From: a virus | Length of the DNA stretch: 64,000 nt | Virus record (IMG/VR): IMGVR_UViG_3300020474_000005 | Span: 1 to 64,000 of that record | Strand: one strand, 5' to 3' | Part shown: positions 8,192 to 54,270 of the stretch, in pieces | How positions within the stretch are numbered: the first letter of the stretch is position 1 | How the letters are laid out: each line of letters opens with the position of its first letter | The notes under the pieces: model-generated | Database searches by the model: none | Told to the model about the DNA's origin: nothing | What the model saw: only the letters and a program-made list of their open reading frames with translations | Program-made: the position numbers and the translations under genes

Positions 8192-9274
8192 ATGTTAGAA
8201 GCACTGAAATCACTTTTTGAAACGAACGCAATTTCGGAAGAGATCAGAGCGGAAATAGAATCAGCGTGGAACAAAAAAGTTGACGAAAACAAACTTGCTG
8301 TTACTGCCGAATTGAGAGGTGAATTTGCAGAGAAGTACGAACACGACAAAGCAAATTTAACTGATGCTGTTGATAAAATGGTATCAGAGAGAATCGAAGC
8401 AGAAATGGCTGAATTCGCGGAAGACAAGAAAGCATTGGCAGAAGAAAAAGTCAAGTATGCTACTCAAATTCGTGAGCATTCAGATAAGTTAAAATCATTT
8501 GTTTTTGAACAACTTAAGAGTGAAATTGCTGAACTACACAATGACCAAAAAGTTATGGCTGAAAACTTCAGTAAACTTGAGGACTTTGTGGTTGAGGCTC
8601 TATCAAAGGAAATTAGTGAGTTCCATCAAGACAAACAAGACGTTGCCGAAACAAAGGTACGTCTAATCCGTGAAGCAAAAGCACATTTTGAAAAAGTTAG
8701 AAATAACTTCATATCAAAAGGCGCTGAAAAAGTATCAGAAATAGTAGGCAAAACTCTTAACAAAGAGATTAGTTCACTAAAAGATGATATTGATGCGGCA
8801 CGTAAGAATGACTTTGGTCGCAGAATGTTCGAAACTTACAGCACAGAATACTCAAACAGTTTTCTGAACAGTAAGAGCGAAACTTCAAAACTTCTAAAAG
8901 TTGTGGATACAGCGAAGCAACAATTAGAAACTGCGAAAGAGACTGCCAACGAGAAAGACAAGATCATCGAGTCAAAAGTTAAAGAAATAGAAGATCTTAA
9001 GAACACGGCAGAGAGAGATTCAGTTATCAATGAGTTAATTCAACCATTGAATGCTGAACAAAAAGATATAATGACAAATCTTTTGGAGAGTGTACAGACC
9101 GGACAACTTAGAAAGCAGTTCGAAAAGTATGTACCGGCTGTAATAAACGGTAGGTCTCCAGCGAAGAAACAGGCTTTAAAAGAAGGCACAGAAATAACAG
9201 GCGACAAACAAATAGTAAACGCAGGTCAATTCAACAGCAAACTTGTTGATATTAAAAGACTTGCAGGTATATAA
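8192..9274 (+). CDS. 22: Prohead scaffold protein gp22
   Basis: This 360-residue protein is almost entirely charged helix (Glu, Lys, Ala, Asp), with heptad-like coiled-coil segments from about residue 20 to 280, and lies between gp21 and gp23, the fixed position of the T4 scaffold gene. The C-terminal part contains V-x-x-x-x-G-R-S-P-A-K-K. A clear ribosome binding site (AGAGGAGAAA) precedes the ATG. The product forms the inner core around which gp23 assembles and is later degraded by gp21. Confidence 0.88.
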   Translation: MLEALKSLFETNAISEEIRAEIESAWNKKVDENKLAVTAELRGEFAEKYEHDKANLTDAVDKMVSERIEAEMAEFAEDKKALAEEKVKYATQIREHSDKLKSFVFEQLKSEIAELHNDQKVMAENFSKLEDFVVEALSKEISEFHQDKQDVAETKVRLIREAKAHFEKVRNNFISKGAEKVSEIVGKTLNKEISSLKDDIDAARKNDFGRRMFETYSTEYSNSFLNSKSETSKLLKVVDTAKQQLETAKETANEKDKIIESKVKEIEDLKNTAERDSVINELIQPLNAEQKDIMTNLLESVQTGQLRKQFEKYVPAVINGRSPAKKQALKEGTEITGDKQIVNAGQFNSKLVDIKRLAGI

Positions 9275-9287
9275 GGAGAAACGACAA

Positions 9288-24583: not shown

Positions 24584-27500
24584 ATGGCAGATTTTCGAAT
24601 AGATAGGATACGTTTTAAATGGAGAGGTGACTGGACAGCAGGAACTCTTTATGTAAAAGATGATGTCCTAAGATTCGGTGCAAAAGTTTATGTTTGTACT
24701 GAAGTACACACATCAGATTCAAATTTTTACAACGACTTAAACGCAACAATTCCAAGATGGACACAAATGATGGACGGTCAAAGTTGGACCGGCGCATGGC
24801 AACCATCTACATTTTACAAAATAGGTGAACTTGTTAAAGTTGGTGGTCTTATATACAAATGTATAACAGGACACACTTCTAATTCATCAGCATCAAATGG
24901 TGTATTAGGTGATGAAACAAAATGGGTTTACTTTGCTAGAGGAGAAGACTGGGCAAGTGTATGGCAACCAGCGACTCTTTACAACGTTGACCAAACTGTT
25001 ATCTATGGTGGATCAATTTGGAAGTGTAACACAGCACACACTTCTGCCACAGCAGATGACGGTTTGCAATACAACGCGGCATACTGGGATCAATATTCAA
25101 GATCAGACAACTGGAGAGGTGACTGGACACACAATACTTTATACTATCCAGATGATGTTATATACCACGGTGGTATGGTTTACAGATGTCTATCAGGACA
25201 CAGATCTTCCACAACAAATGAATTTATTAGTCCAACAATAAAAACAAGTAACGTATCAGGTACAAGTTTTACATTCGCAATTTTCAAAGTAACAACAACT
25301 TACTATTGTAGAATTATTACTGCTGGTTCAGGATACACAGCACTAGGCACAATCACAATAGATGGTGCGAACATAGGCGGTGTGACTGGAACAAATGATG
25401 CAGTGATTACACTTAACACCGTAGACGGTTCAGGTGCGGTAACGGCAGTTTCAGTTGATGGTACTCCTAATTCAAACACAGATGGCTTAGAAGCCAACCA
25501 AGCACAATGGGAAACTGTTATGGATGGTATTAGATACCAAGGTGATTGGGGATTTGGTAAGAGATATTCAAAAGGTGATTTAGTAAGATGGTCTCCAGGT
25601 ATGTGGAGAACAACAACAGGACACTGGTCAACTACTGGAACTATGGACGAATCCAAGTTTACACTGTGGTTACCAGGATTAGAATTCGAACAACTTTGGA
25701 CAACGTCACAATATTACCAACAAGGTGACATTGTTTTATATGGAGGTTACACATATCTTGCTTTAAAAAGTAACATCGGCGTAACTCCATTAGTAACAGA
25801 TTCAAGCGCCACATGGCAATTACAGATTGTTGGATACACATTCAAAGGCGACTGGGTAGGACAAACAATAGTAAACAACCAACTTACTCCATACGAATAC
25901 AAAACAGGTGATGTTGTAACAGCAGGTGGTCATTTATACATCGCGGTTAGAACGCACAGCAACACAGATCCGAACACGGATACAACCTACGATCCTGGTA
26001 CAGATACTCCATTCCCATGGCAAAAACTTGTAGATGCTCATGCTTGGAAAGGTCCTTGGAAAACACAAGACATCGGTGGCAAAACTGGTGAGTCAACTTA
26101 TTTCCCAGGAGATGTAGTTTCAGTTGCAGGTACAATATATAGATGTATACTAACACACGAAGCAAATTCATCAGATGCTAAACCACCGTTAGACTTTGCA
26201 TCTGAAAACGTTGGACCATATTGGGTATTATTAGCACAAGGTCACGCACCAAACGTATTGGAATATCCAGGTGATGTTAAAACAGTACAATCAGATTCAA
26301 CAAGATTAAGAATAGGTTTAGGAACGGCGGGACAATTATTAAAAGTAAACACAAACGGTTTACCTTATTGGGAAGACTTTGAAGTAGTACAAAAAGTTTT
26401 CTATGTTGCTCCAGAAGGAAATGACACAATTAATAATGGAGATAAATTATCTGCTCCATTCAAAACTATAAAATATGCTTGTGATTACATTCAACAAGAT
26501 TTAAACAACAGAGCACCAGCAACTGTTTTTGTTAAAACAGGAATTTATGAAGAAATATTACCAATCACAGTTCCAAGAGACGTTGCTATTGTTGGAGATG
26601 AATTAAGAAGTACAACAATTAAACCTGCGTCAGGATATGAAACAGGTTATGATATGTTCAGAGTAAACAACGGAACTGGTATTAGAAATTTAAGTTTAAT
26701 GGGACTAACAGGTTCTTTGGGAGCGATGAATTCCTATGGTACAAAACGTCCAACAGGTGGAGCATTTGTTACCTTAAATCCAGGAACAGGTCCAACAGAC
26801 GCAAGTGCATGGATTACAAGTAAATCTTGTTATGTACAAAACGTTTCTACATTTGGTACAGGTTGTATTGGAATGAAAGTAGACGGCGATTTACACAATG
26901 GTGGTAACAAATCAATTGTTGCCAATGACTTTACACAGGTAATTGACCAAGGTATTGGTTATTGGGCAAACGGTGAAGGTAAATCGGAACTTGTATCTGT
27001 GTTTACGTACTATTGCCACATAGGTTATCTTGCTACAAACGGTGGAAAAGTTAGAGCAACAAACGGAAACAATTCATATGGAGATTTTGGTTCGGTTGCA
27101 GAAGGTGTTACACCAACTGAAACAGCAATTACGGCAAAAATTAACAACAGAACAAAAGAAGCGACTGTTGACGCAGTTTACAATGATGAAAACGAAATAT
27201 TTGCATTTGCTTATGCTCATGCAGGTCAGGATTACACATCAGGAACAATTACAATTTCAGGTTCAGGTGCAGGAGCGGCAGGTACTCTTGGATATGCAAA
27301 CACACGTGATGGTGGTGTAAACAGAATTAGATTAATGGGTCCTGGAGATTCTACTCCAGCAGGAGGTGCCGGTTATACAAGTATATCTGGTCCAGCAATT
27401 TCAGGTGATAAAACATCTATCAAACTTAATGCACAATTTCAAGGTACGTCGGCACAGACTATTGGACAAAGAATATACATAAGAGAAGGTACAGGTAGAG

Positions 27501-29784: not shown

Positions 29785-32700
29785 ATGGCAGAGTTTAAAC
29801 TAGGTAGAATACGTTTTGTATGGAAAGGTGCTTGGTACACGAGCACTATATACAGTGTAGATGACGTTGTAAGATACGGTGGTAGAACATATATCTGTGT
29901 TGTCAACCACACGGCTAACGCATCATTTCAAGTTGATTTAACAGCGGCAAATTGGGCGTTGATGTCCGATGGTCAAGAATGGAAAGGCGATTGGAGTCTT
30001 AACACAACTTACAAACCAAACGATATTGTAAAATACGGTGGTTACATTTACATTGCTAACACAGGACACACATCTAGTTCAAGTGCATCAGACGGATTAG
30101 AAGTTGATTCTTCTAAATGGGATTTATTCATTGAAGGTTTTGATTACAAATCATCTTGGGCAATCAACACAAGATACAAAGTTAACGATTTAGTAAAATA
30201 CGGCGGAGTAGTTTATCTTTGTATAACAGAACACACTTCAGCGGCAACAACCGCAGATGGTTTAGAAACTGATCAAGCGAAATGGGAAGCATTTTCAAAA
30301 GGATTCAATTGGTTAAACACTTGGGCAACTAGCACAAGATACAAATCAAAAGACACAGTTTCATATGGTGGACAGATTTATGTTTGTATAACAGGTCACA
30401 CATCAAACGCATCGGCGGCATCAGGATTAGAAGCCGACCAAGCGAAATGGGAATACCTACACAAAGGTATAGAGTACAAAGGTGCTTTCGCAGGTACAAC
30501 AAGATACAAAGCAAACGATGTTGTTAAAGGTGGAGCAAACTTATACATCTGTACAACAGGTTACACATCAACAACAGATATAAATGCAGATGCATCTAAC
30601 TGGTCATTATTTGTTCCAGGTTTAGAATTTGAAGATTCATGGAGTTCAGCAACAAAATATCAACCAGGTGACACAGTTACTTACGGTGGTTACCAATATG
30701 TTGCAAAAACTTTAAACGAAAATAAAGTTCCGTCAACGCAAACAAGTGACTGGGCATTATTTGTAACAGGATTTAATTTAAGAGGCGACTACAACAACGG
30801 AACAGCATACAAAACTGGTGACGTTGTAAGAGTTGGTGGTTTCACTTACATAAACATTGCAGACTCAACAGGTAATAGACCACCTAACGTTGTATACTGG
30901 AACAAACTTAATGAAGGTATGTACTGGAAAGGCAACTGGGCCAATGCAACTTATTACGACAAAGGTGATATTGTAAGAGGAACATTAAACACAGATACAT
31001 CTTATATTTGTGTTGGTTCGCACACATCGAACAATCAAGCACCAAGCACAATCAATCAACCAGATTATCCAGCAGGAGCAGGTGTAGACACATCTAACTG
31101 GCAATTATTATCAGGCGGTCCTGAAAATGATGTATTATCTGCACAAGGTGATATTTTAATTTACGGTGCATCTGGTCCACAAAGATTACCAATTGGCACA
31201 TCGGGACAAGCATTAGTTGTTAATGCGGCAGGTACTTTACCAGAATGGGGCAACGTAGGTAAAATTGATCAAGTTTATTATGTAAGTCCAAATGGAACGG
31301 ACAAACCAGCACCAACATCAGGTGTAACTTTAGATAGAGCATGGAAAACAATTAGATATGCACTTCATGAAATAGATAAAGGTCCTAGAAACCCACAAGC
31401 GGCTTATATGCTTACAAGAAACAAAGCATACATCCAAGATGAAACTATTGCTTGGATCAATGCACAGATTGCCGGTAACGTTCCACCATTTACAACTTCG
31501 TTCACATACGGCGCAGTAAAATGTAGAAGAGACATTGGTATAATCATTGACGCAACAATCTATGACTTAACACACGGTGGAAACATTAAATCAAGATTTG
31601 CGGCATTAAATTACTTTACACCAGCAGGTGCTTCTTATGTAACAGGACAAACGTCTGAAACAGCGGCGTCTATTGTTCAGGCAAGTGCTATTGCTAAATT
31701 AGTTGTTGCAAACGGAACACACAGTAACTTACAAGGTTCAACACCTAAGTATGCAAATGCGGCTTACACAGCAGAAGAAGGTACAACTACACTAATTGAA
31801 ACATTGATGAAATATTCATCAGATGCAATCACGGCAGGTAACGTAACAAGTGTACCAGTAGCAAACAATCCAAACATTACTTTAAATGTTAAAACAGGAA
31901 TTTACAACGAAATTCTTCCAATGAGAGTTTCAAGAAACACAGCAGTTGTTGGAGATGAATTAAGATCAACAAACATCAGACCAGCGGCTTCAGTTGTTAA
32001 CTCTTCAGATGTACAATACAGTCTACAAGGTATACAACGTATGGAAGCAATTATAAGCGATGTTGTACAAAACAACTCAGTAACAAAAACACCATCAGGT
32101 GGTGTTGTGTCAGTTACTATGCCAGGTGGTTACATAGGTGTAACTCAAGGTACAGGAACAGCAGTTTCTTCAACTGGTGGTGATGGTACAGGTGCAACAT
32201 TTAATATCACAACTAACGCATTTGGTTTCGTAACTAATTTAACAGTGGCGGCTCCAGGACAAAGTTATATAATTGGAAACAATATTACAATACCAGCAAG
32301 TACAGTTATCGTTGGAACAAGTGGTAACACAACACTTGGTGTTGCAGTTACTTTCCCAGTTACAGCAGTAACTTCAGGAAACACACTAACACAGAACACA
32401 GATGCTCCGGCAGGTAACGCGACTGTTGGTACTAGAGCGGCTACAATCGCTGATCAAATTGAGAAGTACATTGACTTCAAAATCAACGCAAACGGTTCGG
32501 AACCAGCACTTCAAGGTAGCAATATTGCTGAATTTACAGCGGCTTACACAGATGCAAGATTAAGACTTTTAGCAAACAAAGAATTTATTGCCAAAGAGGC
32601 GGCTGAATATGTGAAAAGACAAAACCCAGGCGTAAGTTTTGTTGTTGCAGATTGTGAAGATGACATCAAAGATTACGTAGACGGAATTATTCACGACTTA

Positions 32701-35460
32701 CAATACACTGGTAACCAAAGATCATTACAAGGTGCAGAATGGTATGTGAACGCAGTACAAGGTTCAACTACTAAAAATATGTTCCATATGAGAAATGCAA
32801 CTGGTTTAAGAAACTGTACACTACAAGGTTTAACAGGAACACTAGGATCAGCAAACAGTTATGGTACAAAACGTCCATCAGCAGGTGCTTTTGTTTCACT
32901 AGATCCAGGATACGGTCCACAAGATTACAAAACATGGATTGCTACTCCGGCGGCAGGTACATTATCATACACACCAACTAATGGTACATATGATCCTGCA
33001 ACAGGAACAACAGTATTAACAATTGGTGCTCACAACATGGAAGCAGGTGAGTCTGTTAGAATTACAACAGCAAGTTTAAGTTTCCAATGTTCACAGGACA
33101 ACTACAACACAACTCATGCTTATCCAAGAACAACTGACCCAGCGGCAGGTAAAGAATTATTAATCGAAGCAGTCACTGACACAACAATTCAAGTTAATGT
33201 TGGTGCAAGTGGCGGCGGAGACCAATACATTCACAGATGGGTAAGTGCATCAGCAAACTCAGTACAACAAGAAGTTGTATGTAGAGTAGGTGGTAGATCA
33301 CCTTACGTACAAAACGTAACAAACTTTGGTACAGCGGCAATTGGATTAAAAATTGATGGTAACTTACACGAAGGTGGTAACGATTCAATCGTTGCTAATG
33401 ACTTCACACAGGTAATTTCCGATGGTATAGGTGCTTGGGTAACTAACTTAGGTAGAGCAGAACTTGTTTCTGTATTCTCATACTACGGACACATAGGTTA
33501 CCTTGCAGAGAACGGTGGAAAAATTAGAGCAACAAACGGTAACTCATCATATGGTGACTTTGGTTGTGTGTCAGAAGGTGTTGACTCAACAGAAGTTCCA
33601 ATTACAGCAACAGTTGACAACAGATCAACAGATGCACTTGCAGATGTATTCACAGACGGAAGTGCGATACAGGCGCTATTCTACAAAAACGCAGGTAGAG
33701 AATATGTTGCTAACCAAGTAACTTTAACTTTCTCAGGTGATGGTTACGGATTGAACACACCAGCGGCAACAGTTAATACAGGTGGTATATACGAAATTAG
33801 AGTAACTGATCCAGCAGGTAACAACTTGGGTGGTGACGGTTACATTACAACAACTAACTCAGCACAAACAGGAACAACAACACAGATCACTTTAGCGGCG
33901 GCAGACAGCAGAGCCTCAAGTGCTTATGTTGGTATGTTCTTATTAATTACAGAAGGTAAAGGTGCAGGTCAATATGGTTACATTGACACTTACAGTTCAG
34001 CAAGTAAAATTGCAACAATTAAAAAACTTTCAGACAACAGTGCAGGTTTTGATGTACTAGGTGGCGTAAGTGTTGAAGCAAGTTTAGATTCTACAACAAC
34101 TTATGAAATTACTCCAAGAGTACAGATAGGTGCACCGGCAGGAGATGGTTCAACTGCAACAAGAAACGCAGTTGGTATAGCAACAGTTGTAACAAATAAA
34201 ATTACACAAATTAGAATGATCGATTGTGGTGCTTCTTACACAACTGCACCAACAATAACACTTGTTGATCCTAACAACACAGCGGACGCAACATTACAAT
34301 CTTACATTGGTGATGGTGTGTTAGGTCCACCAACATTTGTTGCAAGAGGTATTGATTACAAAACAGCGGCAGTAACTATAACTGCACAAGGTACACAGGC
34401 AACTGTGACAGGTATCACACAGGCTGGACCTGCAGTGGTAACAACACAGGCGGCTCACAACTTTAGCACAGGTGATAGAGTTAAATTCACTGGTATAGTT
34501 GGAATGATAGAATTGAATACTGCTGTGTTCTATTATGTAAAAACTATAAACGCAACTACATTTTATCTTTTTGCTGATAATGACTTTTTAGTTCCAATAG
34601 ATTCAACAAATTACACTGCATACTCAAGTGGTGGTACAGCAGAATTGTTTGGTGGATTTAGAGATTCACATCAATCAGGCAAATACATACAAGTAGAAAA
34701 TTTAAGTGCTTTACCAAGAGCAGGAGCAAACATCGAGTTTGGTCACAGACCAGGCATTTACTACAAACTAGTTGCTATCACTAGTCAACTTGGAACACAA
34801 ACACCTTACAGTGCATTGTTACAAGTTTCACCAAACGTGACGGCGCAGTATGCACCTGACCATGGAACAAGTTTATCTATAAGAATTAGATATTCACAAA
34901 ACAGATTAACAGGACACGATTTCTTAGATATTGGTACTGGTAACTTCACTTCAACGAATTATCCAGGCTCACCAAATCAGAATCCAATACCGGCTAACGA
35001 AACTGTTGAAGGCGGCGGAGGTAGAGTATTCTTTACTTCAACTGACCAAGACGGTAACTTCAGAGTTGGTGACTTGTTCAACGTAGAACAGGCAACAGGT
35101 ATTGCGTCATTGAATGCAGATGCATTCAACATTTCAGGACTACAAGAATTACAGTTGGGAGATCTAGCATTAGGAGGATCTAGTGCTTCAATTAACGAGT
35201 TTTCAACTGATGGAACGATGGCGGCTAACTCAGACGCTATTGTACCAACACAAAGAGCAATACGAACTTATATCGCTTCACAGATCGGTGGTGGTGCTAG
35301 TTCGCTCAATGTTAACTTAATTACTGCTGGATTAGTGGTAATTACGGGTAATACAATAAGTACAAGTAACAACAGTAAAATTACTATTAGCAGTGTTGCA
35401 AACTTCACAAAAGGTGTAACTGGTGTGCCAATAGCGATGAATATGTTGATACATAGTTAA
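29785..35460 (+). CDS. Giant fibre protein, paralogue of the 24584 protein
   Basis: This 1891-residue protein starts AEFKLGRIRFVWKGAWY and has the same eight N-terminal carbohydrate-binding-like repeats, a beta-helix start near residue 497 (YYVSPNGTDKPA), 'VKTGIYNEILPMRVSRNTAV' and 'GDELRSTNIRPA', and the same C-terminal module (GRVFFTSTDQDGNFRVGDLF, 'PTQRAIRTYI'). It differs from its paralogue by an extra helical segment (about residues 545-690 and 895-985, with 'RLLANKEFIAKEAAEYV' and DDIKDYVDGIIHDL) and lacks the BNR-like part. The pair arose by duplication and then exchanged central domains, which may change binding specificity. Confidence 0.65.
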   Translation: MAEFKLGRIRFVWKGAWYTSTIYSVDDVVRYGGRTYICVVNHTANASFQVDLTAANWALMSDGQEWKGDWSLNTTYKPNDIVKYGGYIYIANTGHTSSSSASDGLEVDSSKWDLFIEGFDYKSSWAINTRYKVNDLVKYGGVVYLCITEHTSAATTADGLETDQAKWEAFSKGFNWLNTWATSTRYKSKDTVSYGGQIYVCITGHTSNASAASGLEADQAKWEYLHKGIEYKGAFAGTTRYKANDVVKGGANLYICTTGYTSTTDINADASNWSLFVPGLEFEDSWSSATKYQPGDTVTYGGYQYVAKTLNENKVPSTQTSDWALFVTGFNLRGDYNNGTAYKTGDVVRVGGFTYINIADSTGNRPPNVVYWNKLNEGMYWKGNWANATYYDKGDIVRGTLNTDTSYICVGSHTSNNQAPSTINQPDYPAGAGVDTSNWQLLSGGPENDVLSAQGDILIYGASGPQRLPIGTSGQALVVNAAGTLPEWGNVGKIDQVYYVSPNGTDKPAPTSGVTLDRAWKTIRYALHEIDKGPRNPQAAYMLTRNKAYIQDETIAWINAQIAGNVPPFTTSFTYGAVKCRRDIGIIIDATIYDLTHGGNIKSRFAALNYFTPAGASYVTGQTSETAASIVQASAIAKLVVANGTHSNLQGSTPKYANAAYTAEEGTTTLIETLMKYSSDAITAGNVTSVPVANNPNITLNVKTGIYNEILPMRVSRNTAVVGDELRSTNIRPAASVVNSSDVQYSLQGIQRMEAIISDVVQNNSVTKTPSGGVVSVTMPGGYIGVTQGTGTAVSSTGGDGTGATFNITTNAFGFVTNLTVAAPGQSYIIGNNITIPASTVIVGTSGNTTLGVAVTFPVTAVTSGNTLTQNTDAPAGNATVGTRAATIADQIEKYIDFKINANGSEPALQGSNIAEFTAAYTDARLRLLANKEFIAKEAAEYVKRQNPGVSFVVADCEDDIKDYVDGIIHDLQYTGNQRSLQGAEWYVNAVQGSTTKNMFHMRNATGLRNCTLQGLTGTLGSANSYGTKRPSAGAFVSLDPGYGPQDYKTWIATPAAGTLSYTPTNGTYDPATGTTVLTIGAHNMEAGESVRITTASLSFQCSQDNYNTTHAYPRTTDPAAGKELLIEAVTDTTIQVNVGASGGGDQYIHRWVSASANSVQQEVVCRVGGRSPYVQNVTNFGTAAIGLKIDGNLHEGGNDSIVANDFTQVISDGIGAWVTNLGRAELVSVFSYYGHIGYLAENGGKIRATNGNSSYGDFGCVSEGVDSTEVPITATVDNRSTDALADVFTDGSAIQALFYKNAGREYVANQVTLTFSGDGYGLNTPAATVNTGGIYEIRVTDPAGNNLGGDGYITTTNSAQTGTTTQITLAAADSRASSAYVGMFLLITEGKGAGQYGYIDTYSSASKIATIKKLSDNSAGFDVLGGVSVEASLDSTTTYEITPRVQIGAPAGDGSTATRNAVGIATVVTNKITQIRMIDCGASYTTAPTITLVDPNNTADATLQSYIGDGVLGPPTFVARGIDYKTAAVTITAQGTQATVTGITQAGPAVVTTQAAHNFSTGDRVKFTGIVGMIELNTAVFYYVKTINATTFYLFADNDFLVPIDSTNYTAYSSGGTAELFGGFRDSHQSGKYIQVENLSALPRAGANIEFGHRPGIYYKLVAITSQLGTQTPYSALLQVSPNVTAQYAPDHGTSLSIRIRYSQNRLTGHDFLDIGTGNFTSTNYPGSPNQNPIPANETVEGGGGRVFFTSTDQDGNFRVGDLFNVEQATGIASLNADAFNISGLQELQLGDLALGGSSASINEFSTDGTMAANSDAIVPTQRAIRTYIASQIGGGASSLNVNLITAGLVVITGNTISTSNNSKITISSVANFTKGVTGVPIAMNMLIHS
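29815..31120 (+). repeat. Eight CBM5/12-like repeats at the N-terminus of the 29785 protein
   Basis: Units begin WKGAW, WKGDW, YKSSW, WLNTW, YKGAF, FEDSW, LRGDY and WKGNW and each continues with T-x-Y-x3-D-x-V and G-G-x-x-Y. Spacing is more regular than in the paralogue, without the large insertion. Confidence 0.6.
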
Positions 35461-42086: not shown

Positions 42087-43919
42087 ATGAGTGATGATTT
42101 AAACAAATACAACAAAACAGGATACATAGCCGCAGTGGCAAGAGGTCACAACGCAGGTGTATGTTTACTGAAAGACGGCAAAATAGTATTTTCAATAGAA
42201 GAAGAAAGACTATCAAGAAGAAAATATGATGGTGGTCCTTATGCTTCCATGTTTGAAATATTAAAATACACGGACAAGATTGATTACCTAATAATTGCAC
42301 ATACACAATCATTGAAAGATCCATCTACTGGCAGAGTAGATTATTCAGGAGATGATGTATACACAGGTATTGCTAGAAAGTTAGGATTAATAGATCCATA
42401 CATTCATAAGATAGAACATCCACAAGTTATTGACTTATCACATATACACCACAAACTTCATGCCGCGTGTGCATTTTATAGATCAGGTTTTGACAAAGCA
42501 GTTGCAGTGATTGTTGACGGTGCAGGAACTTTTATACCTATTAAGAATAGTGTAGCAGGTGACATGACTGTATTTGAAGTTGAAAGTATATTCAGTTGTG
42601 ATTATCCTAATGATATCTTTGCACTGTACAAACATTATGCAACAGGCACAGCAAGTCCAGGAGGTTACTATCCTGAAATGGATTCGGAAAGTATTAGTGA
42701 ACCAGGAAAAACACATGAAGCATTATTCACAGACAAAGCAGGCATAACAAAAACATATGAAGCAATAACTCAGTATTGTGGATTCAGTGCCATTGAGGCA
42801 GGAAAGACTATGGGATTGTTTCCTTATGGAAAGAAAAATGATGTAATACCACCACTGTTTCAAAAAGAAGGAAAATTTGAATTATCAAATAGAAACTTTA
42901 TCATACCAACTTACCCAAATGCGGCGCAGGTAAACAGTCAAATATATCCTTTTGTGGATGCTAATCCTGATTCTGATAAAGGCGAAGATTGGACAAAAAT
43001 GCAAAACAGAAGAGACATGGCTTACGCAGTACAAAAAGAAACACAGAAACAATGTTTAGATTTAATTTACAAAGCAGTTGAGATGAGTGGATGTAAAAAT
43101 GTTGTGTTTTCTGGAGGATACGGATTAAATTGTGTGGCAAATTATTATTATCTTGAAAGTTTACAAAAAGACGGTATTAAGTTATATGCTGAACCAGTTT
43201 CAAATGATGCGGGAACGGCAATGGGTGCGGCTATGTTGTTCTATTACAGCCTTACACAAACAAAAGAAAAGAAAGTTGATGCACCAACTTTGTACTTAGG
43301 TCCAAAAAGAGAATACACACAAGAGCAAATAAGCGGAATATGTCAAAGACCAGGTGTTGTTTTAGAAGATTGTGACGATTCTAAAGTTGTAGAACTTTTA
43401 GTTAATAAAAATATTGTATCAATATTCCAAGGGCAAAGTGAAAATGGTCCTAGGGCATTAGGTAATAGAAGTATTTTGTTTGATCCAAGATTCAAAGACG
43501 GTAAAGATTATGTAAACAGAGTGAAAAACCGTGAATACTTTAGACCATTTGCTGGAACAATACTTCATGATTACGTGCATGATTGGTTTGATCTACGTGG
43601 AATGGAAGAAACTCCACATATGATGTATGCTGTAAACTGTCAACCAGGTATAGAAGAGAAGATTCCAAGTATAATTCACGTGGACGGTACTTGCAGAATA
43701 CAATCTGTGAAACGTGAACAGAATCCTTTGTATTATGACCTAATAAAAGAGTTCCATAAACAAACAGAATGTCCTATAATTTTCAATACATCATTTAATT
43801 TAGGTGGTGAACCATTAGTTGAGACATTAGAAGACGCAGTAAGAACATTACAACACAGCGAAATAGAATATCTATATTTGCCAGAGTACAAAAAGATAGT
43901 AAAGGTTTTAAATGGCTAG
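42087..43919 (+). CDS. Carbamoyltransferase (NodU/CmcH/TobZ family)
   Basis: This 610-residue protein has the full two-domain layout of O-carbamoyltransferases. The N-terminal Kae1-like domain begins with 'RGHNAGVCLLKDGKIVFSIE' then E-E-R-L-S-R, and carries a metal-binding H-H-x2-H-A motif (IHHKLHAACAFY) and D-G-A-G. A second conserved part has FSGGYGLNC near residue 340. The C-terminal YrdC-like domain has QGQSENGPRALGNRS near residue 450 and 'YFRPFAGTILHDY'. Such enzymes make carbamoyl-adenylate and pass the carbamoyl group to a sugar hydroxyl. Lying between two GT9 genes, with overlap to the second, it probably decorates the sugar these enzymes transfer. Confidence 0.88.
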   Translation: MSDDLNKYNKTGYIAAVARGHNAGVCLLKDGKIVFSIEEERLSRRKYDGGPYASMFEILKYTDKIDYLIIAHTQSLKDPSTGRVDYSGDDVYTGIARKLGLIDPYIHKIEHPQVIDLSHIHHKLHAACAFYRSGFDKAVAVIVDGAGTFIPIKNSVAGDMTVFEVESIFSCDYPNDIFALYKHYATGTASPGGYYPEMDSESISEPGKTHEALFTDKAGITKTYEAITQYCGFSAIEAGKTMGLFPYGKKNDVIPPLFQKEGKFELSNRNFIIPTYPNAAQVNSQIYPFVDANPDSDKGEDWTKMQNRRDMAYAVQKETQKQCLDLIYKAVEMSGCKNVVFSGGYGLNCVANYYYLESLQKDGIKLYAEPVSNDAGTAMGAAMLFYYSLTQTKEKKVDAPTLYLGPKREYTQEQISGICQRPGVVLEDCDDSKVVELLVNKNIVSIFQGQSENGPRALGNRSILFDPRFKDGKDYVNRVKNREYFRPFAGTILHDYVHDWFDLRGMEETPHMMYAVNCQPGIEEKIPSIIHVDGTCRIQSVKREQNPLYYDLIKEFHKQTECPIIFNTSFNLGGEPLVETLEDAVRTLQHSEIEYLYLPEYKKIVKVLNG

Positions 43920-44959: not shown

Positions 44960-45394
44960 ATGTTTGATGTATCAAGATTTTTTGGCAAGGGTGATAAAAA
45001 CACGCTTCTTTTGAAGAATGGTTTAAATTTTTCACACAATGGGCCATATGGAGTTGTAGAGGACGGTCTAGTATTAGACAAGTTCCATGTGAATACGTTT
45101 TCATCGGCTGAATATGCCATACAAGTTGACTACGATACTAACAACAAAGAACTTATTAAAATGTTAGTAACAGCAAGTCCCAATCAATCAGCACTTACAA
45201 TATATGCTAGAACAAATTTAGGAAACAATCTAATAACAATAGACAGCACAGTAGACAATTCATTGTGTAAAATAACAGTAAGTCCTACGGATAAAACTCA
45301 AACAGAGAAATATTCAGGATCTAAAATAATATTCAGTGCCACTTATTTTGCAACGCAAAATGCATTAGTGGGAGGAAGTCAGGTAACAAGTTAA
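44960..45394 (+). CDS. Small virion/fibre-associated protein
   Basis: This 144-residue protein has a short Lys-rich start (MFDVSRFFGKGDKN) and then beta-rich sequence ending in A-L-V-G-G-S-Q-V-T-S. It lies 1 nt before the hydrolase-bearing fibre gene, so the two are co-translated. No family is recognised; a connector or fibre cap is an inference from position. Confidence 0.5.
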   Translation: MFDVSRFFGKGDKNTLLLKNGLNFSHNGPYGVVEDGLVLDKFHVNTFSSAEYAIQVDYDTNNKELIKMLVTASPNQSALTIYARTNLGNNLITIDSTVDNSLCKITVSPTDKTQTEKYSGSKIIFSATYFATQNALVGGSQVTS

Positions 45395-45395: not shown

Positions 45396-47252
45396 ATGGC
45401 AGTAGTAAAAAGACCTTTCATAAGTGAAAATGGTTTTCAAAGTACAGGATTCGCAGTTGATACGGCAGGTAACGTAACTGTCCGTACAATTACTAACACA
45501 TATACTCCACCTGCTCCGGCAGTGGTTCCAGATTTTAATGTAGAGGAAACATCAGGTGCTTTTACATGGAAAAAAGACGGTACAGCAGTTGCAGGAAACA
45601 ATCCAACAATTACTATAGAACGTGGTAAAACATATTCTATAAATTTAACTTTAAACAGTTTAGCATTTAACATTTACAAAGCAGATACAGGTAACAGTGC
45701 TGTTCCAGGATTACTTTACAGCACAGGATTATCACACACAAACATTGTAACTGGTTCGACATTAGTTACAGGAAGTAAAAATTTCTCACAAACTTGGCAA
45801 CAAGCAACTACTGGAGCAAATAGAACTGCACAATATTTTGTGCCTGACACAACAGGAACGTCATATGCAACTAAAAAATTACCAGTTGTAATTGCTTTAC
45901 ATGATTCAGGTAGCACTAGTGCAACAGGATTAGCGTCAATAAATTACATTACAAATTCAGTGTTAATTGCGCCTCAAGGTTACAATAACACATGGAACGT
46001 AGGATATCAATCTAGTAAAGCAGATGATATAGCATTGTTAGATTCAATTATTGCTGACTTGGCAAATTATGATAACGTTGATACAAGAGAAATTACAATA
46101 ATAGGTTATGGAAACGGTGCTCAGTTGGCTCTACAATATTCTAATTACAATCAATCTGCAACAATAAAAAATATAATTTGTTACAATGGTCTTCTACACA
46201 TGGACCAATACAATTCTACTTTAGGAAAATTTTACAATTATTCTTTAAATTCTGTAGACAACGATACATCAACTGAAATTAGTTGGAGTGAACTTACACC
46301 AATAGGACAAAGACAAGTATTAATGTTCAATGGTGAACAAGAACTTAATTTTTTATTCAACGGCGGAACTTACTTAGGTCAAAGTTTATACAGCGGTGTA
46401 GATAGTATTCATGGAATGGCTGTTGCAAACGCTTACAGTGGAACAAAAATTACATCAGCAACTTTACAACCAAATGGAAGTAATCTATACGATTACACAT
46501 CAGTTAAAATGTACTCATTTCCAACTGTGGCTAACAATTTTTCTGGTGTACAGAATGATATTAGAACATTAATTACAACACAAATTACTCCTTCAACATA
46601 TTTGGATATTCCTACATCTACGACTTTGACAGATGCGGCGGCGCAAGGTCAACAAACAGGAAATTTAAGTTACACAGTTCCAGTAGATGCTCCGGACAGT
46701 ATGTTTTATGGTGACAGTGATGGAAATCCGTTCGGAACGGTTACAGTTACACAACCATCAGTAATTGGTGTTGGTGTATTCAGCAGTATTTTAAACACAG
46801 GAAATTTATTACAGAATGGTGTTAATGCAAATATAGAAATGAAACCAACTGGAACAGGATTGATCACCATTAATCCTGAGACTACAGGTAGCATTAATAA
46901 CATGAATGTTAATACAGCACAATTAACAACATCAGGAAACGTAAATTTAACACCAAATGCAGATGTTACAATAAGTCCACAAGCAAGTGGTAACCTTACA
47001 ATTAGTCCTCTTTCAGTAGGCTCATTAGATAACGTCACAGTGGGCGGAACAACACCAAGAAATGGAACCTTTTCAAGTTTGGTTTCGAGTGCAGGAACGT
47101 TAAATAGTACTACAATAGGATTAACAACTGCGGCGCAGGCGGCATTTACATCGGCTACTGTAACAAGTGGGCCGGCAACGGCTAATAGTTTAACTAGAAA
47201 GTCGTATGTAGATAACACGGCGACAGTATTAAGTATTGCCTTAGGAGCATAG
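45396..47252 (+). CDS. Fibre protein with an alpha/beta-hydrolase-like domain inserted in a cupredoxin-like domain
   Basis: This 618-residue protein begins as a fibre (KRPFISENGFQSTGFAVDT). Residues about 48-110 look like the first half of a cupredoxin (PTITIERGKTYSINLTL). Residues about 155-400 then resemble a PHB-depolymerase/LpqC-type esterase: LPVVIALHDSGS, LIAPQGYNNTW, 'KADDIALLDSIIADLANYDN' and 'VDTREITIIGYGNGAQLALQ'. The nucleophile elbow, normally G-x-S-x-G, reads G-Y-G-N-G (residues 237-241), so the catalytic Ser is missing. The cupredoxin fold resumes at about residue 420 (LSYTVPVDAPDSMFYGDSDG, then GTVTV) without copper ligands. The C-terminus is fibre repeat. The hydrolase part may now only bind its ligand. 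Confidence 0.55.
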   Translation: MAVVKRPFISENGFQSTGFAVDTAGNVTVRTITNTYTPPAPAVVPDFNVEETSGAFTWKKDGTAVAGNNPTITIERGKTYSINLTLNSLAFNIYKADTGNSAVPGLLYSTGLSHTNIVTGSTLVTGSKNFSQTWQQATTGANRTAQYFVPDTTGTSYATKKLPVVIALHDSGSTSATGLASINYITNSVLIAPQGYNNTWNVGYQSSKADDIALLDSIIADLANYDNVDTREITIIGYGNGAQLALQYSNYNQSATIKNIICYNGLLHMDQYNSTLGKFYNYSLNSVDNDTSTEISWSELTPIGQRQVLMFNGEQELNFLFNGGTYLGQSLYSGVDSIHGMAVANAYSGTKITSATLQPNGSNLYDYTSVKMYSFPTVANNFSGVQNDIRTLITTQITPSTYLDIPTSTTLTDAAAQGQQTGNLSYTVPVDAPDSMFYGDSDGNPFGTVTVTQPSVIGVGVFSSILNTGNLLQNGVNANIEMKPTGTGLITINPETTGSINNMNVNTAQLTTSGNVNLTPNADVTISPQASGNLTISPLSVGSLDNVTVGGTTPRNGTFSSLVSSAGTLNSTTIGLTTAAQAAFTSATVTSGPATANSLTRKSYVDNTATVLSIALGA

Positions 47253-47259: not shown

Positions 47260-50200
47260 ATGGCTAAAAAACGAATAAACGACTATAAATTTATACCAGG
47301 TATACCTTCAACAGGTAATCTTTATCCTAATGCTTGGGCACAACTAAATGCCAACTTTGAATTTTTAAAAGATGAAGCAACGGCTTTTATTGCTTCAAGA
47401 GTAACAACAGACACAGCATACAATCCCTACCCAAATGCATCAGCAAGAATAGTAAACAACTTAAATTACATCAAGGCGGAAGTTGCCAAGTATGTTGAAA
47501 ACCAAGTTGCAGGAAACGTGGCTCCATTTGCAGGTTACACAGGTTTATCAGCGAACATCAAAGCAGACGTTGAGAAAGTTGTTAATGCGGCATACAAAGA
47601 CACAAGATATGGTGGTAACGAAAGAATGCGAACACAATCCAACACATACTATATCGATGGTGTACTACAATTAGGAGACCAAGGTAATCCTGAAATACAA
47701 TATTTGACTTACGCAAGAACTTTGATCGACAGTTACATCTTACCAGGTGTTGCTAACTCTACAATAAACACAGAAGGAATATCACAAAACACTTCAGGTT
47801 CTAATGGAGAAGCGGCTGGTAGAACATTGATGAAGTCAAACATGGATGTAATAATTAATGCGATTGACAATGGAATACTTACTTTACCAGCAGAAGTGAT
47901 TTCAAGTTATCCATTTGCAGATTACACATATGACTCTTACCTTTGTGAAAGAGATATGGGTTACAATCTAACTGGTATATTAAAAGATTTAAGATATGGT
48001 GGAAATGAACAATCAAGATACAACGCAGGAACTTACTGGAACGGTGAAGTATCTGTTTTAACAGGAAATAGACAACCAGAAATACAAACAAAAAATGAAA
48101 TAAAAAGCATTATCAACAATTACATTTTTCCTGGTACAGCATTTTCAAGCAGACAGAGTCCTGTTGTTACACAACAAACAATTTTAGGTTCAGCAGGTGA
48201 ATCTGCGGCAAGTACAAGAGTTACGAGTTTATTCGGAATAATCACAGACGTGATACAAAATGGTTTAGACAACTTACCTGCACAGGTATCAAACGGAATA
48301 TCTAGTGTAAAAATTCCTGAAAGAGTTGAATTAGCAGAATTATTATTGATCACGAACACTACAGACAACACAGTATTATACACATTCAACGACGCGACAC
48401 AAGGTGCAACAGTAAGTTACAAAAGAGAATACGAAACAGGAACATCTAACACAACAGCATTTGTTGATCCAGATTTTCCTAAGGCATATCACGGAAATGA
48501 TGTAATCACTACAATATTTTTAAATGCTGATACATCAGCAGATGCCTCAACAGATGAAATACAAATATTTGTTGAAGATGATGAAGTAAGAACACGTCCA
48601 CATGACTTTGGAACAGATGCGATTGAAAGACTTAGAGTTGCACAACCAGAATCAATGCTTGACGCTGACTTTGAATACGGACTTCAGCCTACGAAGTGGC
48701 AAGCGATTGCAACACAAAGAGGTTATCCATCAATTTATGAAGTACCAGGTACAGACTTTGATATAGCAACTGTAACTTCTGATGCTTCTGCGGGAACACA
48801 AGGTATTGGTTCATCTTTAATCACTGTGACAACAGTAGGTCCACACAACTTTGAAGCAGGACAACCGTTTACAATTACAGGATTTAACAACGCAGTATCA
48901 GGTTCAAGTAGAGCGGCGGGTTCATTTGTTGTAAACACTATTGTAAGTAACACACAATTTACATACTACGCAAAAGCAAAAGTTGCCGTTGCAAACCCAA
49001 CAACGATTTCTACAACTAACACACAGTTAAGAGAAGGTGACTTCTACACAGGAGCGGCGATTGGATTTCCTTCGTTCAGTGTTGCAAGTAATGGTTCTTC
49101 AGGAACTTTCACAACAACAATAAGTGCTTTAAGTGGTGCGAGTATTTTACCATACACAGGTACAACGCCACCAATTGGTGCACCTTTATCAGGAACAGGT
49201 ATACAAACAGGTACACAGGTAACTGGTGCTAACGGATCCGGTGGTTCATTAGCATCTCCAAACGTTACAGGAGACTTTTTATCAGGTGTTACAGAAATTA
49301 CTGTGGCAAGTTCAGCAGGTATTGTGCAAAACTCAGTAATTGATAGAGGAGATGGTTACGCAGTTGCAATCACAAACATCGCTGGAAATAACTTAACATT
49401 ATCAGGACCTCTTACACAAAATTTAATTGGTGACATTACACAATACACAGGACTAGCAGGTGTAAATTATAACCCAGCGGGACAATTAGCAACATTTGAT
49501 ATCACTAGAAATGGTGGAAACTACTCCGTTGTTATTGCGGGATCAGGTCAAGACTACACAGTAGGTGATGCGATAGTTGTAGCAGGAACAACTCTAGGTG
49601 GTTCTACTCCAGCCAATGACGCAACAGTATTAGTAGAAAGTGTAGACACAGGAGGAGAAATCCTTACAGCAACTATTTCAGGATCTGCATTCACTGGTTC
49701 AGGAAGCACAACAGGTACACCAGCAGTATTCCAAGGTGGATTAGGACAAGGTGCACAACTCAATGTAACAAAAACAAACCAATCTTACACAGTTGCATTA
49801 AATTCACCAACTTACACAGGCACAGCAGTAGGAACTTTCCCAGGAGCGGCAGGTTCAAGTGCAACATTTGATGTTGTTGCAACAGCAGGATCTTATTCTG
49901 CAAGTGTAAACGGAGCAGGTACAGGATACATTGTCAATGATGTAATTAGAATTGACGGTTCAACATTTGGTGGTACAAGTGCCAACCATGCAAACATCAG
50001 AGTAACAGCAGTAACAGGTGGTGGAGCAATTCAAACACTTTCAGTATTAGGTACAGCACCAGCACAGACAGTAACTTATAACACAGTTGCATTTACAGGT
50101 GGTAACGGTTCGTCAGCGGCATTTAACATTACGAGAACAGGTACAACTTATTCAGCGGCAATTACAAATTTAGGTTCTAACTATCAACAGAATGATATTT

Positions 50201-53200
50201 TAACTTTCGTTGGAACAAATCTAGGTGGTGCTACAACTGCCAATGATGCGGCATTAGAAGTAACAGCAGTTGATGGCAATGGTGGAATTTTAACTTTCAA
50301 CGTTACAGGTACAGCGGTTGATACAAAATCTTACACAGCAATATCAAGCGGTACAAACTTATCAGGTGTTGACGCAACATTTGATGTTGCAATTTCTGGA
50401 ACATCTTATTCAGTATCAGTAAACCAAGCAGGTAGCGATTACAGTGTAGGACAAGATTTAAAAATATTAGGAACTTCTTTAGGTGGTACAACACCAGCAA
50501 ACGATTTAACAATAACAGTAGCATCAATCACAGGTTCTACTGGTGCAGGCCCTATCAACACAATTTCAACATCAGGCACAGCGGCACTAGAAGGAACAAA
50601 TGGTTACAAAGTAGGTGATCGATTCTTAGTAGGCGGCGGTGACGTAGGTGGAGTGGCAACAACCAATGATGCTTATGTGGCTGTAAGTGGTGTAAACGGT
50701 ACAGGTGGTATCACAGGTGTAACAATCAGTGGTACGGCAACAGATGCCAATGTAGATTATACAAGTCCAGCATACACAACATCCGCTTCGGGTACTGGTG
50801 CAGTGTTTGATATAAACAGAACAGGCACAACTTATACAGCAACATTCAGCAACAATGGTAGTTCATTTGTAGGTGCAGAAACAATAGATATTGCGGGTAC
50901 GGCATTAGGTGGAACAAGTCCAGCAAATGATTGTCAAATTACTGTTGACACAGTTTCAGCAGGTGCGGTAGCAACATTCACAGTAACTGGTACGGCTGTA
51001 AACACACAGGTTTACAACAATGTTAACAAAGCAGGTATAACAGGAACAGGTTTAAGTGTTAACGTAACACTGAACAGTGGTTCTTACAACGTTGCACTTA
51101 ACAATCCAGGTGCAAACTACGCCGTTGATCAAACATTTAAAATTGCAGGAACAGATTTATTTGGTACATCACCAACAAACGATTTAACTTTTACAATCAC
51201 AGCGGTAAACAATATTCCAAGTGGTGTTGTAACAACAATAGGCAGTGTGGCAGGAACGGCAAACACAGGTACTGGTAACTCTTTAGGAGTAAGTGGTACA
51301 AACAGAACTCCATCAGGAGTTGGTGCTCAGTTCAGTGCTACAAGATCCAACCAGACTGACTCTTCAACAGCATACACAGAAGTTACAATAACAAGTTTAG
51401 GTTCGAACTATGCAATAGGTGACAAACTTGTGATAGCAGGTACTAGTTTAGGTGGACAAACTCCGGCAAATGATATCACGTTAAGAGTTCAAAGTGTAAA
51501 CACAACTGGCGGAATATTGACACAAACACACAGCGGTACAGCAGTGGCTGGTACAGGATTAAGTGTGTATGGTTCGATATCTATATCAGAAACAATTTCA
51601 CAAAACATCGCACAGAACAGCACAATAAGTTACAGTGCGTTAGCAACTATACAGGTAGACTTTACTACTCCTCACGGACTAGTTCCAGGAAACGCATTCT
51701 TGATTGTGATACAATCAGATGACGGTGCCAATAATCACATACTTGCATCAGGTCCATTCCTAGCAACGGCAATTCCATCCTCAACAAGATTACAATATCA
51801 AGTTAGATCTCCGGGTGCAATAACAGATTCAGGTTGGCAAGGTTTTGTATATGCAAGACCAGATTCATTCTTTATACATAGACCATTTGATGGAGGTGTA
51901 CAATTAGGTACAGGTGGTCCATCACACGGTGCACAGGCGATACGTCAATCTAAAAAATACATTAGATATCAATCAGGTAAGGGTTGTATGTATACGACGG
52001 GTGCCTTGTTTGCTCCAAGTTATGACCTATTGACTGTGACAGCAGACGGATTAGCACAGGGATCAACAATCACAGTAACGACTGATGATGTTGACCACAA
52101 TTTACAGGTAGGTGCTAGAATAAGATTGATTGGTATTGCCACATCGGGTTATGATGGCACATACACTATCGCAAGTATTGTAAATGAAAGAACATTTACA
52201 GTATTGGCAACTATCGCACTTGGCGGAACGACAGCAGAATTTACAGATCAACCACAGGTATCATTGTATCAATGGAATGGTGCAACTGTAAGATCAGGAA
52301 TATTTGATGACCAAAACGGAATTTATTGGGAATATGATGGACAAACAACAAACGCAGTACAAAGAACAGCAACAAGACAACTTGCAGGTGTAGTAACTGT
52401 TACACCTAACAGTAACACTGTATCAGGAACTGGTACAAGATTTAGAGAACAAGTTAAAGCAGGTGACAGAATAGTAATCAGAGGTATGACACACGTTATA
52501 TCATCTGTTGCTTCTAATACATCAATGTTTGTTACTCCAGATTATAGAGGTGTCAACACTTCAACTGGTGTAAAAGTTTGTGCTGTTGTAGACAAAAAAG
52601 CAAAACAATCAGAATTTAATAGAGATAAAATGGACGGTAATAGCAAGAGCGGTTACAATTGGGACGTATCTAAGATGCAGATGATCGGGATACAATTTTC
52701 ATGGTACGGGGCTGGATTTATTGACTGGATGGCAAGAGGTCAAAAGGGTGACTTTATATTTGCTCACAGAATGAGAAATTCAAACATTAACACAGAAGCA
52801 TTTATGAGAACAGGTAACCAACCTGTACGTTACGAAGTAACCAACGAAGGTCCAAACGGTAGATTAGAATTAGATATGACAACTGTACAAACAACTGTAC
52901 AATTAGTTGATGCAAGTTTCTTTCCGTCAACAGGTGGAACAATTTTCATAGACAATGAAATTATCACTTACACAGGTAAGACAGGTGACGTATTGACTGG
53001 TGCCACAAGAGCGGCAACACTTACAAACTTTAACGCAGGTGCTACAAGAAACTATACAGCCGGCGCGGCAACAACACACTTTAGAAACACAGGAGTTGTG
53101 TTAATATCTAACACAGCATCACCGATCATATCACACTGGGGATCAGCATATCTAACAGATGGTAACTTCGATGAAGATAGAGGATATCTATTCAGTTACG

Positions 53201-54270
53201 CTTCCACAGGATTAGCACTTACAACTACAAAACAAACAGTGTTCCTATTAAGACTAGCACCGTCAGTATCCAACGCATTGACAGGTGACCTAGGAGATAG
53301 AGATCTACTTAACAGAGCCCAGTTGCTACTAGACGGTGTTGAGATTACAACTGACGTTCCAGCGGCGGGTGTAAACGGACAGTTGGTTGTACAGGGTGTA
53401 TTGAATCCACAAAACTATCCAATTGATCCAGCAGATATAGGTTGGGGTGACTTGAAAGGTCCAGCACAAGGTGGACAGCCAAGTTTTGCCCAGATTGCGG
53501 CAGGTGGTTCGGTTAACTGGAACGGTGGTGCATCGCAAACAACAGCGACAGCAAATACACAGGCACAGATGACTGCAACAGCAAACCACTGGTTCAACTT
53601 GAGTGGTAACAGAAACTATGCATACTTCCTTGAAGCACAATGGGAAGGCAAAGGTTTAAGAGTAGGTATGGCAGTATCTTCCGGACAGTTCCCTTCAGGT
53701 ACAGTTGTTACACAGATTATTGACTACAACTCATACTACTTTGTAAGATTCAGTAATAGACACACAGGAATAAGTTCAAATCAAGCAGTGACATTTACAC
53801 TTGGTGGTGATCTATCCGGTACTAACTTCTTGTACATGGATCAAACAACGTGGGAGGCTTCTAACGCAGTTAGCGGTACAGAAGTTGATGTAAGTTACGC
53901 TACTTTCCCACCAGGTACAACAGTGGCATCAGTTGACTCATTAGATACATTTGGAACAACTGACTTCTACAGAGTTACGTTCACACAGACGTCGACGGGT
54001 AATATTGCGGCGGGTGATGCAATTACATTTACATTTGGACAACCACCATATGCACAACCGGGTGAAACAATCTTTTCATTCATTGGGGTACCGGGTGAAA
54101 GAGCAACATTGGCTCTTAGCGCCATTAAAGCCTTAACTAACACAACACTAGGTGGACGTGGTACGTTCCCTAATGGTCCAGACGTGTTGGCTATCAACGT
54201 ATTTAGAACAGCGGGAACGGGTTCTGTTGCAGGAACAGTTACACTGCGTTGGTCAGAAGCACAGGCTTAA
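47260..54270 (+). CDS. Giant repeat-containing virion protein (2336 residues)
   Basis: This is the largest gene in the window. The N-terminal 350 residues contain a duplicated helical unit (KDTRYGGNERMRTQSNTYY and KDLRYGGNEQSRYNAGTYW, each followed by a 'Y-x-L/F-P-G' segment). Residues about 744-1430 hold eight units of about 80 residues with 'Y-x-V/I-G-D-x-L/I-x-I-A-G-T-x-L-G-G-x-T-P-A-N-D'. The C-terminal third (from about residue 1440) has 'FDGGVQLGTGGPSHGAQAIR', 'QSGKGCMYTTGALFAPSYDL' and 'IGIQFSWYGAGFIDWMARGQ', non-repetitive and probably globular. It is likely a long virion fibre or tail-associated protein. It ends the plus-strand fibre block, tail to tail with the cupin gene. Confidence 0.6.
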   Translation: MAKKRINDYKFIPGIPSTGNLYPNAWAQLNANFEFLKDEATAFIASRVTTDTAYNPYPNASARIVNNLNYIKAEVAKYVENQVAGNVAPFAGYTGLSANIKADVEKVVNAAYKDTRYGGNERMRTQSNTYYIDGVLQLGDQGNPEIQYLTYARTLIDSYILPGVANSTINTEGISQNTSGSNGEAAGRTLMKSNMDVIINAIDNGILTLPAEVISSYPFADYTYDSYLCERDMGYNLTGILKDLRYGGNEQSRYNAGTYWNGEVSVLTGNRQPEIQTKNEIKSIINNYIFPGTAFSSRQSPVVTQQTILGSAGESAASTRVTSLFGIITDVIQNGLDNLPAQVSNGISSVKIPERVELAELLLITNTTDNTVLYTFNDATQGATVSYKREYETGTSNTTAFVDPDFPKAYHGNDVITTIFLNADTSADASTDEIQIFVEDDEVRTRPHDFGTDAIERLRVAQPESMLDADFEYGLQPTKWQAIATQRGYPSIYEVPGTDFDIATVTSDASAGTQGIGSSLITVTTVGPHNFEAGQPFTITGFNNAVSGSSRAAGSFVVNTIVSNTQFTYYAKAKVAVANPTTISTTNTQLREGDFYTGAAIGFPSFSVASNGSSGTFTTTISALSGASILPYTGTTPPIGAPLSGTGIQTGTQVTGANGSGGSLASPNVTGDFLSGVTEITVASSAGIVQNSVIDRGDGYAVAITNIAGNNLTLSGPLTQNLIGDITQYTGLAGVNYNPAGQLATFDITRNGGNYSVVIAGSGQDYTVGDAIVVAGTTLGGSTPANDATVLVESVDTGGEILTATISGSAFTGSGSTTGTPAVFQGGLGQGAQLNVTKTNQSYTVALNSPTYTGTAVGTFPGAAGSSATFDVVATAGSYSASVNGAGTGYIVNDVIRIDGSTFGGTSANHANIRVTAVTGGGAIQTLSVLGTAPAQTVTYNTVAFTGGNGSSAAFNITRTGTTYSAAITNLGSNYQQNDILTFVGTNLGGATTANDAALEVTAVDGNGGILTFNVTGTAVDTKSYTAISSGTNLSGVDATFDVAISGTSYSVSVNQAGSDYSVGQDLKILGTSLGGTTPANDLTITVASITGSTGAGPINTISTSGTAALEGTNGYKVGDRFLVGGGDVGGVATTNDAYVAVSGVNGTGGITGVTISGTATDANVDYTSPAYTTSASGTGAVFDINRTGTTYTATFSNNGSSFVGAETIDIAGTALGGTSPANDCQITVDTVSAGAVATFTVTGTAVNTQVYNNVNKAGITGTGLSVNVTLNSGSYNVALNNPGANYAVDQTFKIAGTDLFGTSPTNDLTFTITAVNNIPSGVVTTIGSVAGTANTGTGNSLGVSGTNRTPSGVGAQFSATRSNQTDSSTAYTEVTITSLGSNYAIGDKLVIAGTSLGGQTPANDITLRVQSVNTTGGILTQTHSGTAVAGTGLSVYGSISISETISQNIAQNSTISYSALATIQVDFTTPHGLVPGNAFLIVIQSDDGANNHILASGPFLATAIPSSTRLQYQVRSPGAITDSGWQGFVYARPDSFFIHRPFDGGVQLGTGGPSHGAQAIRQSKKYIRYQSGKGCMYTTGALFAPSYDLLTVTADGLAQGSTITVTTDDVDHNLQVGARIRLIGIATSGYDGTYTIASIVNERTFTVLATIALGGTTAEFTDQPQVSLYQWNGATVRSGIFDDQNGIYWEYDGQTTNAVQRTATRQLAGVVTVTPNSNTVSGTGTRFREQVKAGDRIVIRGMTHVISSVASNTSMFVTPDYRGVNTSTGVKVCAVVDKKAKQSEFNRDKMDGNSKSGYNWDVSKMQMIGIQFSWYGAGFIDWMARGQKGDFIFAHRMRNSNINTEAFMRTGNQPVRYEVTNEGPNGRLELDMTTVQTTVQLVDASFFPSTGGTIFIDNEIITYTGKTGDVLTGATRAATLTNFNAGATRNYTAGAATTHFRNTGVVLISNTASPIISHWGSAYLTDGNFDEDRGYLFSYASTGLALTTTKQTVFLLRLAPSVSNALTGDLGDRDLLNRAQLLLDGVEITTDVPAAGVNGQLVVQGVLNPQNYPIDPADIGWGDLKGPAQGGQPSFAQIAAGGSVNWNGGASQTTATANTQAQMTATANHWFNLSGNRNYAYFLEAQWEGKGLRVGMAVSSGQFPSGTVVTQIIDYNSYYFVRFSNRHTGISSNQAVTFTLGGDLSGTNFLYMDQTTWEASNAVSGTEVDVSYATFPPGTTVASVDSLDTFGTTDFYRVTFTQTSTGNIAAGDAITFTFGQPPYAQPGETIFSFIGVPGERATLALSAIKALTNTTLGGRGTFPNGPDVLAINVFRTAGTGSVAGTVTLRWSEAQA
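49489..51550 (+). repeat. Eight tandem protein repeats of about 80 residues
   Basis: Each unit begins with a 'A-T/x-F-D/N-I-T-R' strand, then 'Y-S-V-x-I-x-x-x-G-x-x-Y-x-V-G-D', 'G-T-x-L-G-G-x-T-P-A-N-D' and ends near 'G-G-I-L-T-x-T-x-S-G-T-A'. One unit (around 50590-50740) lacks its first strands. DNA-level identity between units is modest, so this is an old expansion. Confidence 0.65.

Follow-up and report, generated by a model that had tools for sequence, protein, structure and literature searches.

A predicted non-catalytic alpha/beta-hydrolase domain nested in a cupredoxin-like domain of a fibre-like protein from a large marine myovirus

Gene neighbourhood and domain layout of the fibre-like protein

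The window, the 64-kb stretch of a 76-kb virus record analysed here, carries contractile-tail genes for baseplate wedge proteins, a gp9-like connector and a tail sheath stabilizer, whose products are ~30% identical to their counterparts in jumbo phages such as Atu_ph07, Phosso and PA5oct. Within it lies a plus-strand gene for a 618-aa fibre-like protein, predicted from its position, its neighbours and its fibre-like tail to be a virion protein of large marine myoviruses. The gene, its conserved neighbours and the parts of its product are as follows.

42087..43919, +, NolO-like carbamoyltransferase, conserved neighbour upstream
44960..45394, +, 144-aa protein directly upstream of the fibre gene; the two are adjacent in the examined loci, also where the insertion is absent
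45396..47252, +, fibre-like ORF, 618 aa
45396..45521, +, N-terminal tail, aa 1-42 (MAVVKRPFISENGFQSTGFAVDTAGNVTVRT...), common to the insertion-free orthologue L145; mostly low model confidence
45522..45746, +, first (N-terminal) half of the host domain, cupredoxin-like, ~aa 43-117; model strands E47-52 to E112-115; profile match to phage cupredoxin-like domains
45747..46601, +, inserted alpha/beta-hydrolase domain, ~aa 118-402, delimited by phrog_2576, model and VIA; missing from L145
45900..45905, +, former oxyanion-hole motif HG, now H169-D170; G in 72/72 active relatives, replaced by D, E or N in the inactive clade
45993..45998, +, W200-N201 of the retained P-x-G-Y-x-N-x-W-N; W invariant and N nearly so in active and inactive relatives
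46104..46118, +, nucleophile elbow G-Y-G-N-G, aa 237-241; Gly239 (46110-46112) in place of the catalytic Ser
46341..46343, +, E316, where relatives have the catalytic Asp; E, D or N within the clade
46530..46535, +, A379-N380, where the catalytic His would be; alignments put His on 379 or 380, and all clade members lack a His in the vicinity
46602..46757, +, second (C-terminal) half of the host domain, cupredoxin-like, ~aa 403-454 (TVPVDAPDSMFYGDSDGNPFGTVTV); Cys, His and Met no longer present at the ligand positions
46758..47249, +, fibre-like tail at the C terminus, aa 455-618 (..KSYVDNTATVLSIALGA), also kept in L145; pLDDT < 50
47260..54270, +, virion structural protein of 2336 aa (phrog_5838), next gene downstream of the fibre gene; adjacency kept

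The fibre gene is linked to the 144-aa and 2336-aa neighbours in all examined loci that extend far enough. Glycosyltransferase-like genes also lie upstream, and the segment 41135-44892, with the NolO-like carbamoyltransferase and two glycosyltransferase-9-like proteins (phrog_8954), is kept beside the fibre in most related loci. Elsewhere in the window, two giant tail proteins (24584-29749 and 29785-35460) contain seven and six CBM_5_12 modules of chitin-binding type, respectively, which suggests that they bind chitin or some comparable polymer. A database search with the C-terminal tail of the fibre-like protein gave no significant similarity to other fibre proteins, and searches of phage genomes with the N-terminal and C-terminal parts taken separately returned no match.

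Hydrolase fold and active-site positions

Residues 130-375 match the PHROG profile phrog_2576 with an E value of 5.7e-21. Pfam matches to the 618-aa protein all fall under the cut-off, and a PDB search with its single sequence gave no match. The AlphaFold2 model, computed from 38 aligned sequences of the window and IMG/VR, has a pLDDT of ~90 over aa 43-450 and predicts a canonical alpha/beta-hydrolase fold, complete with the strand-turn-helix of the nucleophile elbow. When model residues 118-400 are aligned with VIA, the best chain is acetyl xylan esterase B (AoAXEB, 9j07; Z 25.0 over 247 residues at 2.9 Å), with a feruloyl esterase at Z 22.3 and a PHB depolymerase (8daj) at Z 21.0, and all 1000 ranked chains score Z 8 or more. 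Against viral models, the top Foldseek matches are cyanophage S-MbCM7_177 and the S-RIM14 YHYH protein. The domain is ~29% identical to active relatives, and profile and predicted structure together place it in the alpha/beta-hydrolase superfamily and in phrog_2576. A first-pass annotation had proposed an esterase-like segment from short motifs, which we located at aa 162-173 (LPVVIALHDSGS), 210-215 (DDIALL) and 235-243 (IIGYGNGAQ); structure prediction and fold search recovered the hydrolase fold that it anticipated.

The relatives whose active-site columns were compared came from IMG/VR, from cultured cyanophages and from bacterial genomes. Glycine replaces the elbow serine in all 27 distinct proteins of the nested architecture, that is, the 25 of the main tally plus L139 and L143. 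The catalytic histidine and the oxyanion glycine are lost in 25/25 tallied nested proteins, where the glycine has become Asp, Glu or Asn and the acid position holds E, D or N. The comparison set of other architectures comprises 72 relatives, 37 from phages and 35 from bacteria (Bacteroidota and Planctomycetes). Here the oxyanion HG is intact throughout (72/72), the serine is intact in all except L057, which has Asp, and the Asp and His are intact except in one row that is gapped at both. Because the wider family has Ser, the elbow glycine is taken as the derived state. In the inactive clade, neither the elbow nor the His loop has a newly fixed Ser, Cys or His. Judged by its residues, the domain is thus unlikely to be an active esterase of the CE1 or PHB depolymerase type.

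The replacement of Ser by Gly in G-Y-G-N-G had been read from the window alone; it proves to be fixed in every relative of the same architecture and absent from all others, and no same-architecture relative has an elbow serine or a newly fixed one there. The losses also appear wider than that annotation had stated, as the oxyanion glycine and the catalytic histidine are gone too. No second, active hydrolase copy was found in the phage's own record or in nine related records (57-134 kb, all probably fragments).

The exceptional L057 protein (5809-9315, 1169 aa) has Asp for the nucleophile serine (GFDTGA) with its other active-site residues intact. This residue may function as in Asp-nucleophile hydrolases, or it may mark a second inactivation.

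Host domain, insertion and selection

In the model, strands of one beta-sandwich (E47-E115 and E421-E452) flank the hydrolase. A host profile joining the two halves from five proteins of the inactive clade matches, by hhalign, phage domains with an invariant His, Cys, His, Met pattern (98.6%, E 5e-16). The profile of this phage set in turn matches copper nitrite reductase, plastocyanin, azurin and auracyanin in the PDB, where nearly all of its matches are cupredoxins. A joined-flank query against phages gave only weak matches (E 0.05-0.3), whose relationship was persuasive only once profiles were compared and via L145. Adding copper-free rows to the cupredoxin set gave a profile that lost most of its PDB cupredoxin matches; this profile was rejected and the copper-type set was used for this reason. 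From the profile comparison and the strand pattern of the model, we call the host domain cupredoxin-like, as the first-pass annotation had done.

All four copper-ligand positions are gone in the inactive clade, in line with the earlier observation on the window, and likewise in L145. The host domain is therefore not expected to be a type 1 copper protein, and since L145 also lacks the ligands, their absence was probably not caused by the insertion. Loss of the catalytic residues and loss of the copper ligands are probably separate events. In the same window, the gp9-like baseplate connector (22889-24172) has a C-terminal cupredoxin-like domain that keeps the His/Cys/His/Met pattern (HPF...YYQCTAHSGM), and the same ligand-keeping gp9-like domain is present in cyanophages S-RIM4 and S-MbCM100.

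The insertion-free orthologue L145 (IMGVR_UViG_3300003937_000323, 2815-3831) is a 339-aa protein that shares the N tail, the host domain and the C tail of the window protein and has no hydrolase. It is syntenic, with a related carbamoyltransferase (59% identity), a 144-aa gene (41%) and a 2336-like gene as neighbours. By tblastn, aa 1-112 and 419-617 of the window protein align to L145; as the alignment covers only these flanks, the hydrolase sits in place of a short loop. The existence of this orthologue confirms the nested position proposed at first pass, makes the insertion a discrete event and means that the fibre does not strictly depend on it. The hydrolase is also missing from relatives of the host domain in other phage proteins, which makes insertion a simpler reading than loss.

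The inactive sequences form a single clade with a support of 100/100, whether or not cellular sequences are included in the tree, and catalytic loss looks like one event in a single ancestor. Over the hydrolase, dN/dS is ~0.04-0.1 in well-diverged pairs, similar to the host domain and tail; estimates from very close pairs are unreliable. No stop codons interrupt the hydrolase in the nine related records searched, and the insert persists across proteins that are only ~47% identical. Unlike the catalytic residues, P150, G195, Y196, N198, W200, N201, D211 and N227 stay conserved in the inactive clade, and the motif P-x-G-Y-x-N-x-W-N is intact. Several dozen positions are invariant in this clade and not in the active set, partly because the clade is a less diverse sample; clade-specific invariant residues include Q194, Y204, Q243, Q247, Y248, W297 and N381. 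The retained W/N motif may be structural instead of pocket-forming.

Proposed function and relation to known systems

We propose that a CE1/PHB-depolymerase-like esterase domain came into one loop of the fibre's cupredoxin-like beta-sandwich in an ancestor, and that its catalytic Ser, His and oxyanion Gly were all replaced, once, in that lineage. The domain would afterwards have been under purifying selection, with its fold and P-x-G-Y-x-N-x-W-N intact, and may now serve as a non-hydrolytic binding module that holds an acylated glycan or other surface polymer without cutting it. Such a polymer could be the host's own or that of a particle on which the host lives. On balance we slightly favour a virion-borne pseudo-esterase reused in this way, a reading in which ligand binding, the nature of the ligand and the virion location are all inferred. 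The more specific picture is a tentative one: a tail esterase turned into a lectin-like, non-cutting receptor grip, plugged into a loop of a copper-free cupredoxin in which a sister lineage has nothing inserted. In the first-pass annotation the domain looked like an enzyme recruited for receptor binding; of that picture, an inactivated hydrolase that interrupts the cupredoxin-like, copper-free domain of a fibre-like protein holds up in the model, the alignments and L145, and the recruitment carries the weaker standing just given.

Relatives with an intact triad occur in other proteins of marine phages, where they adjoin peptidase, YHYH, Ig-like or baseplate domains. Intact-triad relatives, mostly of 350-400 aa, are also found in marine Bacteroidota and Phycisphaera-type Planctomycetes (L170-L211), and these bacterial esterases are a possible source of the phage domain.

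The main rival to a binding module is a structural or docking role, in which the hydrolase would be a spacer that widens the fibre or touches a virion neighbour, for example the 2336-aa protein, with the former pocket unused. This is a serious but less probable reading. The constant 144-aa and 2336-aa neighbours are consistent with it, the clade-specific invariant residues could mark a protein interface no less than a pocket, and cupredoxin-like domains recur in baseplate connectors, among them the gp9-like protein of the window. Part of the esterase motif is nevertheless retained, and no partner has a strict need for the insert, as related 144-aa and 2336-like neighbours also accompany L145. 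Residual catalysis, by an unusual mechanism or another residue, is very improbable: most members have D or E at the acid position, Ser and Thr are plentiful and the fold is intact, but the nucleophile, the His and the oxyanion Gly have each been replaced, without a Ser, Cys or His becoming fixed in the elbow or the His loop instead. Decay towards loss is about as improbable; a relative without the domain (L145) could speak for it, but low dN/dS, the uninterrupted reading frames and persistence of the domain across diverged proteins all oppose it. Chance resemblance within a beta-rich fibre, with no inserted hydrolase, would agree with the sub-threshold Pfam scores taken alone, but has a negligible probability given the phrog_2576 match, the VIA Z of 25 and the identity to active relatives, and is ruled out by the predicted structure.

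If a pseudo-esterase does act as a non-cutting binding module here, the gain of a pseudoenzyme could be tied directly to specificity for a host or a particle. Enzymes of phage tails are commonly seen as cutters, and in this lineage a tail-type esterase has apparently long been kept after catalysis was lost. The active relatives, the bacterial esterases and the insertion-free orthologue are natural controls for the question of whether a phage enzyme that has ceased to cut turns into a receptor grip.

Esterases and deacetylases that act on surface polysaccharides are often found on phage tails and are an established phage tool (PMC5380687), and two further papers are reported to describe esterase or deacetylase domains on phage tail proteins (PMC9569702, PMC13123978). 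These systems likewise have an esterase-type domain on a tail or fibre protein, but the domains are reported or predicted to be active, and several are of the SGNH type, which is another fold. In the open-access literature searched, neither this domain nor any inactive hydrolase in a phage fibre was found described, which does not prove that such reports are lacking.

The phrog_2576 cyanophage hydrolases (S-MbCM7_177, S-ShM2_094) belong to the same family by ~29% identity and predicted structure. Unlike the fibre insert, they keep Ser-Asp-His and HG, and they adjoin S8 peptidase, cupredoxin or YHYH domains rather than being nested inside a cupredoxin. S-ShM2_094 (L002, 5017-6738), annotated as 'gp7 baseplate wedge initiator', is composed of a YHYH domain and an esterase domain, and its label is probably a misannotation. 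The closest solved folds are CE1-type acetyl xylan and feruloyl esterases and PHB depolymerases (9j07, 8jh8, 8daj; Z 21-25), which are active enzymes, only 14-18% identical to the insert and not virion-borne. Plastocyanin and azurin, both type 1 copper cupredoxins, are reached by the host-domain profile via the H/C/H/M phage relatives, whereas all four positions of their ligand set are lost in the phage host domain and in L145. In animals, neuroligin and other cholinesterase-like adhesion proteins carry an alpha/beta-hydrolase without the nucleophile that is now an adhesion domain; these are eukaryotic cell-surface proteins and derive from another hydrolase family than the phage insert.
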